Part shown: in pieces, positions 5,377 through 15,270 of the stretch | How positions within the stretch are numbered: the first letter of the stretch is position 1 | How the letters are laid out: each line of letters begins with the position of its first letter | From: a virus | Virus record (IMG/VR): IMGVR_UViG_3300037880_000006 | Location: 1 to 21,734 of that record | DNA: 21,734 bases | Strand: one strand, 5' to 3' | Program-made: the position numbers and the translations under genes | Notes under the pieces: model-generated | What the model was told of the DNA's origin: nothing | Databases searched by the model: none | What the model saw: only the letters and a program-made list of their open reading frames with translations

Positions 5377-7143
5377 ATGGCACAACCTCCGGCCTATAAC
5401 AAGTCAACCAATTTCGCAGACTACGCCGCGGCCAATCCGTCCGCGCCGTTCCCGGCCGCCTCGACCGACAGCGAGTTCTCGGCGGTGGAGACAACGCTTG
5501 ATGCAACGCTGACTAACTTGGCGCTACTCCAGCGCGACGATGGCAGGATCAAGAACCAGACCGTTCACCCGGATTCGCTGACACCCGCGACCGTTGCCAT
5601 GCTCGGCGACTGGAACCCGCGTGGCCTGTGGACGACTGGAACCGCCTACGCGGTGCGCGACATGGTGGAGCAGGCGAGCGCCTCGTATGTCTGCGTGGTG
5701 GCCCATACGGCTGGGGCCTCGTTTGCCATCGACCAGGCGGCGGTGAAGTGGATCGCGCTGGACGGGCTGAATGCCCTCGCCGCTTCCTCCGGCTCGTCGC
5801 TTGTTGGGTTCATACAGTCCGGTACGGGGGCGGTGGCGAGTACGGCGCAGGCGAAGATGCGGGAGGTTGTGAGTGTCAAGGACTTCGGCGCGGTTGGCGA
5901 TGGTGTGGCTGATGATACGGCGGCGATCAGCAATGCCCTGACCTACTGCCTCGCCAACAACCGCCCGCTTTATTTCCCACCTGGCACATATCTTAGATCC
6001 TCCACTATCACACTGAACGTCGCCGGTGCGGCGGTTTTCGGGGACCATTGGCGCAATACGAAGATCAAATTCACGGCGGCGGTGAATGGTCTTGTGATCT
6101 CTGAGAAGTATTGCAACATCCAAGGTCTTTGGTTCGACGGCAACAGTATAGGGCTCACTGGCGTCATCTTCCACAATGGGTCAGAAAGTAATGTAGATCG
6201 TGTCCATTCGTCAGGCTGGACTGCCGATGGCGGCAGGGTAAATGAGACTTTCACGACACCGACAGGCAACAACAATCTAGCTCGCATCAGCCGTTCGCAT
6301 TTTTCCTCGAATACCGGCAAAGGATTCACGTCCCCCTCGATCGGCTCTGACGGTAACGGCATCGAGATTATTCAGTGCAATATGTCTGGTAACACGTCTC
6401 ACGGCCTGCTTGTTAAAGGGGTCGGATGGCGTGTCATCGGCGGCATCTACGAAGGGAATGGCGGTTACGGCATCCAACTCAGCGAATCGGGTGACGGAAG
6501 CGCGACTACCTTCGGCTTAGTCCTATATCCCTGGATTGAATCGAACACGTCTGGCGGGATTCGCGGCGGCGGGATGTCTCTCAAGAACCGCGTGGCTTTT
6601 GACACGAACACACAAACCTACACCGCAGCCGCTGGTTCAGAAGATCTCATAGAGACTGTAAACAATAGCGCTGGGCCTATTCTTCAGATCGGCGACGGGA
6701 CTGATTACATCGGGCTCACGGTCGTGCTCGCGGGCACTCGTCGTGCGCAGATTCAAGCTCTCGGGGCTGACACTAATATTCCTCTGTACCTCATGGGGAA
6801 AGGAACCGGAGGGCTACACCTTGACCCGTTTAATCTCGGCGGCGTAACACTGGGCGGCGCTGCCAATGCCGTAATTACGAAGCATCTCTCGGCGGCGGCT
6901 GCGCTTGACTTTGCAGATACGGCAACTGGAGCGGCGGCGAACCTGACTATCACGGTAACTGGTGCTGCGCTCGGGGACACGGTAACGCTCGGCATTCCGA
7001 ACGGCTCCATTGTCGCCGGTGCTGCAGGCTTCTATGCATGGGTATCCGCTGCGGACACCGTTACGGTGCGCTTCTGGAACGCGAGCGGCGGAAACCTAAA
7101 CCCGGCCAGCGGCACATTCCGTGTGGACGTATGGAAGCACTAG
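5377..7143 (+). CDS. Beta-helix tailspike with pectate-lyase-type domain
   Basis: A 588-residue spike. Residues 1-130 repeat the virion-anchor region of the fibre at 1477 (QRDDG at 52-56, DWNPRGLW at 78-85, SYVC and KW downstream). A short linker, LVGFIQSGTGAVASTAQ, leads to VVSVKDFGAVGDGVADDTAAI (164-184), the entry motif of the pectate-lyase superfamily right-handed beta-helix in phage depolymerases. The helix probably runs to about residue 440. Residues about 505-588 (ALDFADTATGAAANLTITVTG through SGTFRVDVW) form a C-terminal module shared by many fibres and spikes, probably for trimer formation. It most likely binds and cleaves a host capsule or O-antigen; catalytic residues cannot be read from the motif alone. 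The middle of the gene is lower in GC (about 53% at 6121-6240) than the anchor (about 68% at 5581-5640), a sign of domain exchange. Confidence 0.88.
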   Translation: MAQPPAYNKSTNFADYAAANPSAPFPAASTDSEFSAVETTLDATLTNLALLQRDDGRIKNQTVHPDSLTPATVAMLGDWNPRGLWTTGTAYAVRDMVEQASASYVCVVAHTAGASFAIDQAAVKWIALDGLNALAASSGSSLVGFIQSGTGAVASTAQAKMREVVSVKDFGAVGDGVADDTAAISNALTYCLANNRPLYFPPGTYLRSSTITLNVAGAAVFGDHWRNTKIKFTAAVNGLVISEKYCNIQGLWFDGNSIGLTGVIFHNGSESNVDRVHSSGWTADGGRVNETFTTPTGNNNLARISRSHFSSNTGKGFTSPSIGSDGNGIEIIQCNMSGNTSHGLLVKGVGWRVIGGIYEGNGGYGIQLSESGDGSATTFGLVLYPWIESNTSGGIRGGGMSLKNRVAFDTNTQTYTAAAGSEDLIETVNNSAGPILQIGDGTDYIGLTVVLAGTRRAQIQALGADTNIPLYLMGKGTGGLHLDPFNLGGVTLGGAANAVITKHLSAAAALDFADTATGAAANLTITVTGAALGDTVTLGIPNGSIVAGAAGFYAWVSAADTVTVRFWNASGGNLNPASGTFRVDVWKH

Positions 7144-7228: not shown

Positions 7229-8832
7229 CCACCACCGACTACAGCAAGCTCTCAAAGGAAGAACTGCTGCGCAAGAAGCAGGGGTTCGAGCGGCTGCTGG
7301 CGGCGAAGAAGGCGCGGGATAGTCTGTTGGAGTTTGTGCGGTTCATGATGCCGGACCCGAACCATCAGAACGACATGACGAAATCGCTCTACGACGTGCA
7401 GCCGCATCATCGCGTGATTGCCGAGGCGCTGGAGAACATCGAGGCCGGGCGCAATCTGCGTATGCTGCTGTCAGTGCCACCTCAACATGGAAAAAGTTTG
7501 CTTTCGTCGATCATGTTCCCCGCCTGGGCGATCGGCAGAAAGCCGTGGCGCAAGTTCATCATCGCCACCTACAGCGATGACTTCTCCGGGCAATTCGGCG
7601 CGAAGGTGCGGACGTTGATGCAGAGCCCGCTCTACCATCAGGTGTTCCCGCAAGTCGGCCTGCTGGTGGGCAGCAAGTCGAAGTCGTACATGAACACTCC
7701 GCAGGGAGGGCAATTAGTTTTCAGCGGGGTCCGTGGGCAAGTGACTGGAGTTGCCGCTGACATATTTTTGTTCGATGATCTTTTGAAAGGCCGGATGGAA
7801 AGCAACAGCTTGACCATCCGCGATCAGGTGTGGGAGTTCCTGTGGTCCGTGGCCTACACGCGGATCAACGCGGCCGGCGCCATGATCGGCATCGGTACGC
7901 GATGGAGCGAGGACGACCATATGGGCCGCATCACCGACAAGACCAGCAGCTACTACAACGAAGCCGAGGCGAAGAAGTGGCAGTACATCAACCTGCCGGC
8001 CATCATCGAGGACGCCGAACTGGCGAAGGCGCTGGACCGCAAGACGGGCGAAGTGTTGTGGCCGGGCCGATACACGCTGGAACACTTCGAGACGGTCAAG
8101 CAACTGGACGAGTACACGTTCAACGCGCTCTACATGGGCAGGCCAACGCCGCCAGAAGGTGCGTTCTTCAAGGCGTACCAGTTGCAGACCTACTCCGGCC
8201 TGCATGAACTGCCGAAGAATTTGCGCATGTACGGCAGCGGCGACTTGGCGGTGTCGCCGGATCGCAATGCCGACAGCAGCGTGGTGCTCAACTGGGGCCT
8301 GGACGAGAACGACTGCCTGTGGTGCCTGCCGGACGCCTACTGGGACAAGAAATCGTCCGACGAATCGGTGGAGCAAATCTGGAAGTACGGCAAGCACAAC
8401 AACTGGATGACGTTCTTCGGCGAGAAGGGCCAGATCAGCCGGTCGGTCGGGCCGTTCCTGAAAAAGCGGATGCAGGAAGAAAATGCGTTCTTCCATATCG
8501 AGGAATTCGCCAACGTCGCCAAGGATCAGGCGGCCGTGCCGTTTCGGGGCCGCTGTGCGCAGGGCAAGGTGCGCTTCCCGGCATTCGCGCCGTGGTGGCC
8601 GCGGGCGAAGGAACAGTTGCTGAAGTTCACCGGCAAGGACGACCGTTCGGATGACTTCGTGGACGCCTGTTCGCGCATCGGTCAGGGCTTGCAAATGCAG
8701 GTCACGGCGAGCCGCCGGAAGCTGCCGTCCAACGTCGTCGAAATCAAGCCGGGCTCGATCGCCTGGGCGCACCAGCAGTTCACGCACCAGCGCAAGTCCG
8801 AGAAACGCAAGAAAGCCCTGATGGGAATGTAG
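7225..8832 (+). CDS. terL: Terminase large subunit
   Basis: The 535-residue DNA-packaging motor and nuclease, acting at the portal of the procapsid. The ATPase part has the Walker A VPPQHGKS at 84-91, Walker B IFLFDD at 180-185 and the coupling motif IGTRW near 223-227. The C-terminal RNase H-like nuclease starts at about residue 336 with YGSGDLAVSPDRNAD, Asp340 being the first catalytic acid, and shows the late acidic cluster KDDRSDDFVDA near residue 475. All expected parts are present at normal length. The start at 7225 is tied to a short upstream frame by ATGA; its ribosome site is weak. The portal gene follows after two bases. No small terminase gene lies in the usual place just upstream, which is occupied by the tailspike. 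Confidence 0.95.
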   Translation: MTTTDYSKLSKEELLRKKQGFERLLAAKKARDSLLEFVRFMMPDPNHQNDMTKSLYDVQPHHRVIAEALENIEAGRNLRMLLSVPPQHGKSLLSSIMFPAWAIGRKPWRKFIIATYSDDFSGQFGAKVRTLMQSPLYHQVFPQVGLLVGSKSKSYMNTPQGGQLVFSGVRGQVTGVAADIFLFDDLLKGRMESNSLTIRDQVWEFLWSVAYTRINAAGAMIGIGTRWSEDDHMGRITDKTSSYYNEAEAKKWQYINLPAIIEDAELAKALDRKTGEVLWPGRYTLEHFETVKQLDEYTFNALYMGRPTPPEGAFFKAYQLQTYSGLHELPKNLRMYGSGDLAVSPDRNADSSVVLNWGLDENDCLWCLPDAYWDKKSSDESVEQIWKYGKHNNWMTFFGEKGQISRSVGPFLKKRMQEENAFFHIEEFANVAKDQAAVPFRGRCAQGKVRFPAFAPWWPRAKEQLLKFTGKDDRSDDFVDACSRIGQGLQMQVTASRRKLPSNVVEIKPGSIAWAHQQFTHQRKSEKRKKALMGM

Positions 8833-11257: not shown

Positions 11258-12370
11258 ATGGCAGAAGCAACAGAAGGCGGCGAGCAGGGCGACCTGTTAG
11301 CCGCCGCAGCAGCACCCGAAGGGGGCGTAGAGACGCCGGAAGCGCCCGCCGGCAGTGAAGCAGCAGCACCCGTTACAGACGCACAACCGTCGGCCTCGTC
11401 AACCGATGAAGGCGTAAAAAAGCCCTCCCAACTCGACGCCGTAATGAAGGCGCTGGGCCGGGAAGATGGTGCCGAAGCCTCGCCAGCGGCGGAAAGCGAA
11501 GATCAGGATAAGGACACGCCCGACCCCGACGGGAAGGCAGCGCCGGCCGATGAGGCCCCGCCTGCAGCCCTGGAAGGCGAGGACGCGAAACTGCCCTTTG
11601 CCCGACACCCGCGGTTCCGGCAGCTTTTGACGCAGCGCAACGAATTCAAGGCGAAAGCCAGCGAAATCGAAGCCAAGCTCAAGGTTCTGGAGCCCAAGGC
11701 GCAGCATTTCGAGCAGTTGACGCAGTACGCGGTAGCGGCCAATTTCACCAGCAAGGACTTTCAGGACTTGCTGCATATGGGCCGGCTGATGAAGAACGAC
11801 CCGATTGCCTTCCACGAAGCCTTCAAAAGCCAGTGGGCGGAAATCGAGCAGTTGGTAGGTGCGAGGCTGCCGGAGGACCTGGAACGCAAGGTCAACGACG
11901 GCCTGATCGACGAGGAATCCGCGAGGGAGCTTGCCCGGAAACGGGGTGAAGCCAGCCTGAACGGGGAACGAGCCGAACGCATCACCCGTCAGACCGCGCA
12001 GGAGCGTGAGCAGGCCGCAAGCCGGGATCACGAGCGTCAGCAGCAGGAATTGGTGAGCAATTTGCAGGGCACCGCAAATCGCTGGGAAGCGCAGTGGAAA
12101 GGTTCCGATCCGGACTACGCGATAAAGCAGCCGCTGGTCCAGGAAAAGATCGAACTGGCCCTGTTCAAGAAGCCGCCGGCCTCCCCCGAGGAAGCCTTGG
12201 CGATCTTCAACCAGGCCAAGAAGGATGTCGATGAGCAGATCAAGCGTCTGCGCCCGCCTCCGGGATCGGTCAGAACCACGGGCAGCGGCACGTCTGTAAA
12301 CGCGAAAGGTGTGCCCAAGGACCCGATTGACGCCGCAATGATGGCCATCGAGAACATGGGCAGCCGATAG
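11258..12370 (+). CDS. Scaffolding protein
   Basis: A 370-residue protein that directs capsid assembly inside the procapsid. Evidence is its place between portal and capsid genes and its build. The first 105 residues are acidic, rich in Ala, Pro, Glu and Asp and probably disordered. From about residue 113 (FARHPRFRQLLTQRNEFKAK) it becomes a long charged helix and coiled coil to about residue 290. The C-terminus has a basic, flexible part (RLRPPPGSVRTTGSG) followed by a short helix (KDPIDAAMMAIENMG) that would touch the coat protein, as in other scaffolds. GGAG at 11244-11247 precedes the ATG. There is no protease domain. The family assignment relies on context more than sequence identity. Confidence 0.8.
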   Translation: MAEATEGGEQGDLLAAAAAPEGGVETPEAPAGSEAAAPVTDAQPSASSTDEGVKKPSQLDAVMKALGREDGAEASPAAESEDQDKDTPDPDGKAAPADEAPPAALEGEDAKLPFARHPRFRQLLTQRNEFKAKASEIEAKLKVLEPKAQHFEQLTQYAVAANFTSKDFQDLLHMGRLMKNDPIAFHEAFKSQWAEIEQLVGARLPEDLERKVNDGLIDEESARELARKRGEASLNGERAERITRQTAQEREQAASRDHERQQQELVSNLQGTANRWEAQWKGSDPDYAIKQPLVQEKIELALFKKPPASPEEALAIFNQAKKDVDEQIKRLRPPPGSVRTTGSGTSVNAKGVPKDPIDAAMMAIENMGSR

Positions 12371-12382
12371 GAGACTGCCACC

Positions 12383-13429
12383 ATGCCGTTGACGCAATTT
12401 ACCGCGGCCGAAGCCGCAAACATCACGAACGCTGTGCTGGACCATCACCTGAAGGGCCAGCCGCTTTCCCAAACGATCCAGAACAAGCCGCTGTTGAAGG
12501 CTCTGCTGTCCAAGCCCAAGCCGTTCGCGGCCGGCAAGGATCTGCTGACCTGGCCGGTCAAGGGCAACTACAGTGCCGTCACGCAGGGTTTCAGCGGCGA
12601 TGACACCGTGGCCTACAGCAACCCGACGAACGTCAAGCGGGCGTCGGTGGCCTACTACCAGTTGCACACTGGTATCACCTGCACGCACGACGAACTCAAG
12701 CGTGACGGCATCAGCATCACTGACTCCACCGGCTCTGGCAAGAGCAAGGCCACGCGCAGCGATGTGGCGGTGCTGGTCAACCTCTGGAAAGACAAGATCG
12801 AGGATCTGACCGAGAGCCGCGAGCGCAACCTTCAACTGATGATGTGGCGCGACGGCACCCAGGACGCCAAGGAAATTCCGGGCCTGCTGTCGTTCATCCT
12901 CGACGACCCGACCGCGGCCGGTAGCACGCTCGGCATCGACCGGGTGGCCAATACCTGGTGGCGCAACCGTGCCAGTCTGGCGATCGACTCCAGCACCGCG
13001 TCGAACCAGAACCTCGTCAACAAGCTGCAGACCGAGTACCGCCAGTTGCGGCGCTACGGCGGCAACCCGAGATTCTTCCCGGCCGGCTCCGCCTTCTTGG
13101 AGGCGCTGGAAAAGGAGCTGCGCAGCAAGGGCAACTACACGCTGGAAGGCTGGAACAAGACAGGCGCGGTGGACTTTGGCATGGCCGACGTGCAGTTCAA
13201 GGGCATCATGGTGCAGTACGAACCGACCCTGGACGACATCGGCCGCTCGAAGTACGGCTACTGGCTGGATATGAACCATATCCACCTGCGGCCGATGGAG
13301 GGCGAGTGGGAAAAGACCTTCACGCCGGAGCGGCCGCCGGAGGCTTACTGTCTGTTCCAGGCCGTGGTCGATACGGCGGCACTGACGTGCGACCAACCCA
13401 ACTCATGTGGCGTTTTTTCCATCGCTTAA
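12383..13429 (+). CDS. Major capsid protein
   Basis: A 348-residue coat protein, expected to have the HK97 fold and to build the icosahedral shell. It directly follows the scaffold gene, with AGGAG at 12368-12372 ten bases before the ATG. The sequence has features I associate with podovirus coat proteins: an N-terminal helix (TAAEAANITNAVLDHHLKG), a central substrate-like strand region (NPTNVKRASVAYYQLHTGIT), the RERNLQLMMWRDG helix and a C-terminal strand region (KYGYWLDMNHIHLRPMEG) ending with AALTCDQPNSCGVFSIA. The last dozen codons (from about 13395) use AT-richer codons than the rest, next to an inserted endonuclease gene. No cleavage site or fused decoration domain is evident. Confidence 0.88.
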   Translation: MPLTQFTAAEAANITNAVLDHHLKGQPLSQTIQNKPLLKALLSKPKPFAAGKDLLTWPVKGNYSAVTQGFSGDDTVAYSNPTNVKRASVAYYQLHTGITCTHDELKRDGISITDSTGSGKSKATRSDVAVLVNLWKDKIEDLTESRERNLQLMMWRDGTQDAKEIPGLLSFILDDPTAAGSTLGIDRVANTWWRNRASLAIDSSTASNQNLVNKLQTEYRQLRRYGGNPRFFPAGSAFLEALEKELRSKGNYTLEGWNKTGAVDFGMADVQFKGIMVQYEPTLDDIGRSKYGYWLDMNHIHLRPMEGEWEKTFTPERPPEAYCLFQAVVDTAALTCDQPNSCGVFSIA

Positions 13430-13437
13430 CTGGCGCC

Positions 13438-14142
13438 ATGAAGAAATGCACTTCTTGCGGCGAGACGAAGGCTGAGGATTTATTTCCAAAGCGTCGTAAC
13501 GTTTGCAAGAAGTGCTGGGTTGCCAGAAACAAAATTTCTTTTGAGAAGCACAGAGAGGCTAGGGTCGCGCAGAAGAAAGAGCACTACGCCAAAAACAGGG
13601 AGCGCATCAAGGCGCAAGTAGCGCAATATCGCAAGGAGCACCCAGAGGTTTTGAAATCGTACCGCGAGAAAAACAAAGATGTGCTTTACAAGAAAAACTC
13701 TGAGTGGAGAAAAGCAAACCCGGAAAAAGCAAGGGCAATAGAGTTGCGCAGGATACCTAGCGAGGAAAGAAAAAAATCTGGAATCGAAAGACTGAAAAAG
13801 TGGTCAGTTGAGAACGCAGAAGCGGCAAAAGTTGCAAGACGTGAAGCCGCTAGGCGGTTTGCAAAAAATAATCCTCACAAGATCGCAGCTTCAAATGCGC
13901 GTCGAAGGTCTCAGACAAACCACAAACTACCGTGGGGCCAAGAAGGAATTGCTGATGTTTATGCGGAGGCGCGATATTTCGGCATGCACGTAGATCACAT
14001 CGTTCCGCTGAATCATCCTCTGGTGTGCGGCTTGCATGTATGGGATAACCTGCAACTATTGTCGCGCAGCGAGAATTCGTCTAAAAGAAATCGCTTCGAC
14101 CAAGATTCGCATGTGCACACTTCGTTAGGAGATCAAAAATGA
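13438..14142 (+). CDS. HNH endonuclease (homing type), inserted behind the capsid gene
   Basis: A 234-residue endonuclease. The N-terminus is a zinc-binding module with Cys4-x2-Cys7 and Cys23-x2-Cys26. Residues 30-150 are an extremely Lys/Arg/Glu-rich helical stretch that probably lies along DNA. The C-terminal HNH motif is clear: VDHIVPL with Asp186 and His187, GLHVWDNLQLLS with His200 and Asn204, and N213-x2-K216-x-N218. The gene is AT-richer than everything around it (about 42% GC at 13681-13740 against about 63% at 12961-13020) and sits between two head genes, both signs of a selfish insertion. The ATG at 13438 has no good ribosome site. The stop overlaps the next gene as ATGA. It probably cuts insertion-free relatives of this phage and so spreads. 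Confidence 0.92.
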   Translation: MKKCTSCGETKAEDLFPKRRNVCKKCWVARNKISFEKHREARVAQKKEHYAKNRERIKAQVAQYRKEHPEVLKSYREKNKDVLYKKNSEWRKANPEKARAIELRRIPSEERKKSGIERLKKWSVENAEAAKVARREAARRFAKNNPHKIAASNARRRSQTNHKLPWGQEGIADVYAEARYFGMHVDHIVPLNHPLVCGLHVWDNLQLLSRSENSSKRNRFDQDSHVHTSLGDQK

Positions 14143-14558
14143 AACTCTACAACTGCCGCGTTTCCCTCGGCGCCAACATCGGCACCGTCAACCCGCACCA
14201 CGAAAAGCCGATGTACTCGATCCCGAAGGCCGAAGTCGTGCTGCTGCGGGCGATTCACGGGCGTGACGCCGTGATCGACATCGTGGAAGTCGGGACCACG
14301 GACAAATCGGACCGCGAGATTTATCAGGCGCTGGCCGATGAATTCACCGGCTACCCGAAGTACGTGCATCTGATCGAGCAGTTGTTCAGCGTCAAGCTGA
14401 CCGACCTGACTTCGGATCTGGACGATCTGGAGTCCGACCTGGGCGGTGATCGCCTGACCGCGAAGGTGGTGGATGTGGCGGCGGGTGCTGACGATGAAAT
14501 CGAAATCGCGCCTGTCGCAACCCAGCGTCCTGCGCGCACACCGGTAGCGATGGAATAA
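14139..14558 (+). CDS. Conserved-looking head-region protein, function unknown
   Basis: A 139-residue protein. AGGAGAT at 14128-14134 gives the ATG at 14139 its own ribosome site, so it can be made independently of the overlapping endonuclease. The N-terminal 90 residues look like a compact domain: MKLYNCRVSLG, an AEVVLLRAIHGRDAVIDI helix-strand unit, VEVGTTDKSDREIY and a helix (KYVHLIEQLFSV). The last 50 residues are acidic and then low-complexity (VATQRPARTPVAME), probably disordered. Proteins with the LLRxIHG pattern often follow the coat gene in such phages, but I know no assigned function. A minor head or completion protein is possible. Without the endonuclease it would directly follow the capsid gene. 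Confidence 0.75.
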   Translation: MKLYNCRVSLGANIGTVNPHHEKPMYSIPKAEVVLLRAIHGRDAVIDIVEVGTTDKSDREIYQALADEFTGYPKYVHLIEQLFSVKLTDLTSDLDDLESDLGGDRLTAKVVDVAAGADDEIEIAPVATQRPARTPVAME

Positions 14559-14568
14559 GGGGCCTGCG

Positions 14569-15270
14569 ATGGCCCGCAACAACACGCTGTCGGAACTTGT
14601 GGAGTCCGTTTTAGACGAGACCCGTCATTCGACCGACGCGACCCGCGGCGTGGACCATCGCAACTACGTCAAGCGGCTGATCCGCAATTTCTACCAGCAA
14701 CTCGCCGATGAACATTCGTGGCCGTTCCTGCGCATCGAAAAGGCCGACGCCACAAAGGATATTCAGGCGGGCTCTCGCTATTATGACTTCCCCACCAACC
14801 TCGACATGGAGCGCGCGCTATCGCTCTGGACCAAGTTCGGGGAAGTGTGGAGCCAACTGACCTACGGCATCGGCCCGCAGGAGTATTCCGCTTACGATTC
14901 TGACGATGACGAACGCACCGGGCCGGCGCTGCGCTGGCAGGTGTACAACGAAACCCAGTTTGAAATTTGGCCTCTCCCGGCCGCGAACATCACCGGCGGC
15001 TTGCGCTTCGAGGGCTACCGCAAGATCACGCCGCTGATTGCAGACGACGACCGTTGCGACCTCGACGGCATCCTGATCGTCAAGTTCGTGGCGGCGCGCA
15101 TTCTCGCCAAGAAGAAGTCAGCCGACGCGCCGATGGTGCAGGCCGAAGCGGTGGAGCGGCTGGCGACCCTGAAAGCCCGCGCTCCGCGCCCGCGCGTCAT
15201 CATGGGCGGCGCACCTACTGGCGGCAATCAATACCGAATCATTGGCGGACGCTTCGCCAGGGTGGAGTAG
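14569..15270 (+). CDS. Head-tail adaptor-like protein
   Basis: A 233-residue protein likely to form the ring between portal and tail nozzle, comparable in place and size to T7 gp11 or the P22 neck proteins. It starts with helices (TLSELVESVLDETRHSTDA, then NYVKRLIRNFYQQLADEHSWPFL) and continues with a beta-rich part: SRYYDFPTNLDMERAL, TYGIGPQEYSAYDSDDDER, and FEIWPLPAANITGGLRFEGY. The D-F-P, Y-G-I-G-P-x-E-Y and IWPLP signatures recur in podovirus adaptor-type proteins as I know them. The end is Arg/Gly-rich. AAGGGG before the ATG at 14569 supports the start, and the stop TAG shares its G with the GTG start of the nozzle gene. Function is inferred from pattern and position. Confidence 0.72.
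   Translation: MARNNTLSELVESVLDETRHSTDATRGVDHRNYVKRLIRNFYQQLADEHSWPFLRIEKADATKDIQAGSRYYDFPTNLDMERALSLWTKFGEVWSQLTYGIGPQEYSAYDSDDDERTGPALRWQVYNETQFEIWPLPAANITGGLRFEGYRKITPLIADDDRCDLDGILIVKFVAARILAKKKSADAPMVQAEAVERLATLKARAPRPRVIMGGAPTGGNQYRIIGGRFARVE

Follow-up and report, generated by a model that had tools for sequence, protein, structure and literature searches.

Homing genes cluster near essential genes, capsid genes among them (PMC10448857), and in phage T4 the free-standing gene segD is inserted between the capsid genes 23 and 24 (PMC2988022). The sections of PMC2988022 that treat T4-type phages describe seven free-standing genes as seemingly promoterless and a segD-like gene, seg43(25) of Aeromonas phage 25, as carrying, ahead of its RBS, a hairpin of very high stability. 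They also place the cuts of known free-standing enzymes hundreds or thousands of bp from the enzyme's own gene, so that a target cannot be read from gene position. Phage HNH enzymes can exclude or outcompete relatives (PMC12724721, PMC11620839).

Here we analyse a stretch of viral DNA of 21,734 nucleotides (the window), which is an entire 21.7 kb virus record; a megablast search of the phage collection gave no match to a close relative of the window phage. Between its capsid gene and the next head gene lies what is probably a free-standing, homing-type HNH endonuclease gene and a mobile intruder (Table 1). The position, kind and likely role of this gene are precedented, because segD, capsid-near homing genes and excluding HNH enzymes are known; an array of 15-residue units in the protein and a hairpin within the coding sequence are the less familiar parts of a known kind of selfish phage gene. 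Like segD and seg43(25), the window gene is a free-standing nuclease gene (PMC2988022), but those two encode the GIY-YIG catalytic fold whereas the window protein is of the HNH type, and the hairpin is upstream of the RBS in seg43(25) (PMC2988022) and inside the coding sequence here. T4 mobA-mobE and Aeh1 mobE resemble the window gene in being intergenic, in pairing an HNH core with a separate presumed DNA-binding part and, often, in the absence of a promoter of their own (PMC2988022); in these proteins, however, the HNH part is N-terminal and the binding part C-terminal, whereas in the window protein the zinc ribbon and arm come first and the HNH core last. The I-HmuI-like HNH genes of Skunavirus are likewise patchy, occupy set insertion places within one genus and lie outside introns (PMC12724721). 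Their class was assigned by HHpred, and the relevant passages of that paper make no mention of a 15-residue array such as the window protein carries.

Table 1. Features of the capsid-proximal region of the window (all coordinates are window positions).
Feature	Coordinates	Strand	Basis or remarks
Major capsid (major head protein) gene	12383..13429	+	phrog_9953, E 7e-45
HNH endonuclease gene	13438..14142	+	234 aa; phrog_1035, E 2e-14; phrog_26577, E 2e-11; AlphaFold2 mean pLDDT 89.2
Zinc-ribbon-like segment, residues 1-27 (C4, C7, C23, C26)	13438..13518	+	Sequence; pLDDT 97-98 over residues 1-30
RNA hairpin within the first 26 codons of the HNH gene	13448..13515	+	Folding energy against recodings and shuffles
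Basic arm, residues 24-163, tandem short helices	13507..13926	+	AlphaFold2 helix starts; 15-residue period in the family
HNH core, residues 168-216 (D186, H187, N204, N213)	13939..14085	+	Alignment; PDB look-alikes
Shine-Dalgarno-like AGGAG of P3, within the 3'-terminal part of the HNH gene	14127..14131	+	Sequence
P3, small gene found next behind the capsid gene in relatives	14139..14558	+	Homologue alignment
P4, SU10-type adaptor gene	14569..15270	+	PF24175, E 2e-12

The HNH gene starts 8 nt behind the stop of the capsid gene, and the start of P3 overlaps its own stop (ATGA), the overlap named in the original prediction. The place between two head genes is borne out in that the capsid gene lies directly upstream and, one gene beyond P3, the adaptor gene lies downstream. 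The capsid protein is intact and aligns with its relatives over its length, and a search for introns gave no Rfam match between positions 12300 and 14700 at E values up to 1. The gene is thus free-standing in the usual sense, as it lies between genes, outside an intron or intein, with its neighbours intact.

That the gene is foreign and horizontally acquired is well supported. Its GC content is 0.471-0.472, against 0.581 +- 0.009 expected for the same protein (z -11.6), and its GC3 is 0.502-0.504, against an expected 0.770 +- 0.027 (z -9.9), the expectations being derived from 500 simulations in which the same amino acids were recoded with the codon usage of the rest of the window. The composition is therefore unlike that of the neighbours, as had been proposed, and the shift is not merely an effect of the many Lys codons, since the expectation holds the amino acids constant. 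Among the 24 ORFs tabulated, the gene has the lowest GC and the lowest GC3, and the low-GC stretch extends from about the capsid gene's end as far as P3. The tail spike gene (5377-7143) also has a codon usage unlike the rest of the window (z -7.6) and was probably exchanged too; odd GC alone therefore indicates import and not homing.

The site between capsid gene and P3 (the slot) was compared across relatives that were found by using the capsid protein, or alignments of capsid proteins, as queries; with the window, 262 loci had a capsid match. Removal of duplicates left 215 loci, of which 13 had no mapped P3 and were dropped, leaving 202. Each alignment scan of the viral collection lists the best 80 of more than 500 candidates, and the slot counts given here are therefore samples. 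Among the matches listed, the slot is empty (capsid-P3 interval under 250 bp) in 116 of 202 loci and filled in 86. The gene is neither common to all relatives nor uniform with them in composition: the HNH family of the window fills the slot in 3/202 of the listed loci (the window, L069 and L265), and another HNH type does so in 2/202 (L209 and L268; the L209 gene is HNH_3 by Pfam). The slot HNH genes of these five loci come from at least two nuclease families. When the 86 filled slots are ranked by their drop in GC, the window, L265, L209 and L069 take ranks 1-4, all of them HNH genes, and L268 takes rank 9. The remaining 81 filled slots have no profile assignment, and those inspected contain small ORFs or genes that resemble head-fibre or decoration genes. 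Such head-fibre- or decoration-like genes, of variable length, are common in the slot (L008, 2383-3273; L021, 1172-1849; L031, 4797-5702; and others). Since other cargo enters it too, the slot may be open to insertions in general instead of being a homing site.

Absence from the site in relatives is characteristic of free-standing homing endonuclease genes and is what we observe. The comparison with gene-less relatives that had been suggested for finding the exact borders did yield empty slots, but it did not fix the borders of the insertion in the window, where the nearest gene-less relative among the matches listed has a capsid protein that is 58% identical. A closer empty-site pair is formed by L069 and L274, with capsid DNA 82% identical and an alignment break at 6032 to 6855 in L069 versus 5023 to 5094 in L274; this pair makes homing testable. 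The slot counts also bear on a role in packaging or head maturation. In HK97, an HNH protein adjoins the terminase, and the placement of the window gene among head genes would suit a similar function. However, terL ends at 8832, 4.6 kb away, the family is absent at this place in 199/202 sampled relatives and the composition is foreign, and we consider an HK97-type packaging protein highly improbable.

When the 202 capsid proteins are placed on a FastTree tree, three changes are needed to account for the window, L069 and L265, although counts of changes on this tree cannot alone separate gain from loss. Each of these loci has an empty locus as its nearest row. The smallest well-supported set that holds the window consists of the window and 6 empty loci, and the place of the window is less sure because of its long branch. 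The tree of the HNH genes themselves separates the three slot rows from the four rows from behind the adaptor gene, and decides little, because it is built on 85 columns, few of its forks are supported, and the rows of L069 and L265 are very long. A single common origin of the slot HNH genes would fit this tree, and the case for separate entry rests on the capsid tree for that reason. Together with the two nuclease families found there, these data show repeated entry of HNH genes into the slot among related phages, and document a site just behind the capsid gene that was entered by at least two HNH families in one tailed-phage lineage. The end of the adaptor gene is a second HNH hot spot, used by the window's family (L254, L245, L246 and L220) and by another HNH type (L020, L194 and L263). 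With HNH genes both in the slot and at the adaptor gene end, several HNH types have therefore entered the operon.

The zinc-finger cysteines reported from the first inspection are all present in the ORF, as two N-terminal CxxC knuckles, and the segment that holds them is zinc-ribbon-like, with a putative metal site. The complete HNH motif also reported, which is C-terminal, stands as far as its core residues are concerned, but the third motif residue is N213, so that the motif (HVDHIVPL...DNLQLL...N) is an H-N-N variant. D186, H187, N204 and N213 are invariant in 39/39 aligned family sequences. The AlphaFold2 model (pTM 0.44) is confident in its parts and not in their mutual arrangement. Its PDB look-alikes, over residues 167-230, are HNH domains, and a PDB sequence search with the window protein gave no useful match. 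Pfam HNH (PF01844) scores the window protein at 18 bits, below the curated cut-off of 21.4, and matches 4/39 family members at E 0.01; by residues and model the protein appears HNH-like, yet it is not filed as a member of PF01844. The PHROG matches and the model support an HNH domain, and the invariant residues and the model support an intact nuclease core of a homing-enzyme fold.

One of these PHROGs, phrog_1035, is named 'endonuclease VII', and its match would speak for a junction resolvase of that type. Endonuclease VII has its DHDH between its two cysteine pairs (PMC6083498), whereas in the window protein both pairs precede the arm and are separated from the core by about 160 residues. PF02945, the endonuclease VII model, matches neither the window protein nor any of the 39 family members at E 0.01, and a resolvase of this type is almost certainly the wrong reading. 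The name of phrog_1035 may be misleading, as this PHROG matches 38/39 family HNH proteins that have no PF02945 match. The phage homing enzyme F-CphI (DHHRN) likewise has its catalytic core at the C-terminus, but it carries an endonuclease VII motif inside a zinc site (PMC6083498), a layout the window protein does not have. Elsewhere in the window, near its left end, the gene at positions 832-1269 probably encodes a protein resembling a resolvase or endonuclease (phrog_824, E 4e-36; phrog_5702, E 5e-15).

Relatives of the window HNH protein are encoded in at least 456 candidate stretches of viral contigs. The 147 ORFs that neighbour 78 family members fall into 135 clusters, a scatter typical of genes that have no set location, and one that is partly expected because the loci come from very different phages.

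We infer cutting, target site, homing, and the expression and regulation of the gene from these features. The zinc ribbon and the basic 15-residue helix array would hold DNA, and in a mixed infection the C-terminal HNH core would nick or cut the DNA of a relative that lacks the gene, at a matching site. Repair templated by the carrier genome would then copy the HNH gene into that relative. Of the free-standing homing endonuclease originally predicted, the foreign nuclease gene, its position outside an intron and its absence from sampled relatives hold up, whereas cutting, homing and the proposed target, capsid-region DNA of competing phages, are putative. It is also conceivable, if unlikely, that the nuclease is kept because it harms co-infecting relatives (interference competition, marker exclusion), with homing lost or incidental. 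The experiments described in the relevant parts of two reports would favour this: two of seven Skunavirus HNH enzymes tested lower the plaquing of phage sk1 about 1000-fold (PMC12724721), and phiPA3 gp210 hinders phiKZ (PMC11620839). The intact core residues of the window protein suit it as well, but the rare and patchy presence of the gene (3/202 sampled loci) fits a selfish gene at least equally.

As regards expression of the putative homing gene, a scan found no promoter or terminator of its own near the gene beyond chance, and no Shine-Dalgarno sequence is visible for it; it is therefore probably read from the capsid mRNA and weakly translated. A hairpin, whose start lies 10 nt beyond the start codon's first base, would lower its translation further. 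The first 28 codons fold at -35.8 kcal/mol, a value as low as which was reached by 0/400 synonymous recodings (mean -17.6, sd 3.7), and dinucleotide shuffles of positions 13430-13520 give z -4.35. The outer stem, of 11 Watson-Crick and 2 G-U pairs, joins the coding sequences of the two CxxC knuckles. The window copy ranks first of the 46 zinc-type family members, the window included. The zinc-ribbon segments of 10/46 members have z below -2; two other regions of these genes each give 2/46, and members without a zinc ribbon give 3/34. Quasi-palindrome correction during replication is a rival, function-free cause of such a coding hairpin.

The empty loci (for example, L198, L274 and L099) have a hairpin between capsid gene and P3, with z below -2 in 98/114, versus 16/114 for equal-length pieces inside the capsid gene. 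These post-capsid hairpins were judged by z-scores relative to shuffles, together with this matched control, and not by raw folding energy, because capsid coding DNA folds about equally strongly. We do not call these hairpins terminators because T-runs behind them are rare (five or more T in 8 nt in 19/114). A strong hairpin kept behind the capsid gene across the lineage perhaps guards or processes the capsid mRNA. L069 and L265 retain a hairpin in the interval from the capsid stop to the start of the HNH gene, whereas the hairpin of the window is within the HNH gene itself. The window hairpin may stand in for the post-capsid hairpin of relatives, although the relative L001 has only 20 nt behind its capsid gene, too short for such a hairpin; a stand-in of this kind offers a concrete, testable idea of how an inserted gene could spare the expression of the capsid gene ahead of it. 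The same features would suit inert cargo, that is, a nuclease gene recombined in by chance, too weakly expressed to matter and being lost: there is no visible Shine-Dalgarno sequence and no promoter match, the hairpin covers the start region, and the codons are strongly foreign. The open frame and the intact conserved core residues argue against this, and repeated HNH entry into the slot and operon exceeds what it would lead one to expect; we regard it as decidedly unlikely.

The middle of the protein (residues 24-163) is rich in Lys, Arg and Glu. The 'long Lys/Arg helix' first described for it was right as to composition, but the AlphaFold2 model has about nine short helices in its place, mostly about 15 residues apart (starts at 24, 39, 54, 69, 80, 95, 108, 127 and 146). 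Model and sequence together thus describe the basic arm as a predicted tandem array of helical units of about 15 residues, which is more degenerate in the window than in many relatives. In 80 family proteins, successive N-x-[EDQ] motifs are exactly 15 residues apart in 77/160 cases and 30 apart in 20/160, whereas shuffled regions give a total of 14.3 distances between such motifs, 0.28 of them being 15 residues long; a recurrence at lag 15 is also seen for aromatic residues (z 28.6). When 39 members were scanned with Pfam and NCBIfam, the array itself was covered by no model apart from single weak matches, and a limited search of open-access papers found no description of it.

A query with the repeat array matched 210 loci, of which 80 (L351-L430) were inspected; 39 of them carry the HNH core of the window's family. 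Among the other 41, Pfam confirms GIY-YIG in L417 (1/1 scanned) and endonuclease VII in L391, L401 and L410 (3/3 scanned); array proteins of this type, with a true endonuclease VII domain, match PF02945 at E 7e-24. By eye, seven further array proteins resemble endonuclease VII, and other nuclease-like ends are seen in L355, L366, L422 and L412, the first with no Pfam match and the last with one below the cut-off. No domain was assigned in 26/80 array loci, some of which are cut by contig ends. The charge of the array and the company of nucleases suggest that it probably binds DNA. In this repeat-search set, which is biased because the search patterns that picked its loci spanned part of the unit, repeat conservation gives no clear DNA-reading code.

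The repeat arm is the aspect with the wider reach. In a speculative and rather unlikely extension, it would be a portable DNA-reading arm of mobile phage nucleases (HNH, endonuclease VII and GIY-YIG) that gains and loses whole 15-residue units, the number of units and their variable residues setting the DNA gripped; in the window copy, the zinc-ribbon mRNA hairpin would replace the post-capsid hairpin of relatives, so that the intruder would be cheap for the phage. Should the array read DNA one unit at a time, three nuclease folds would share a natural, modular binding part. The longest arrays reach about 20 units (L370 and L353).
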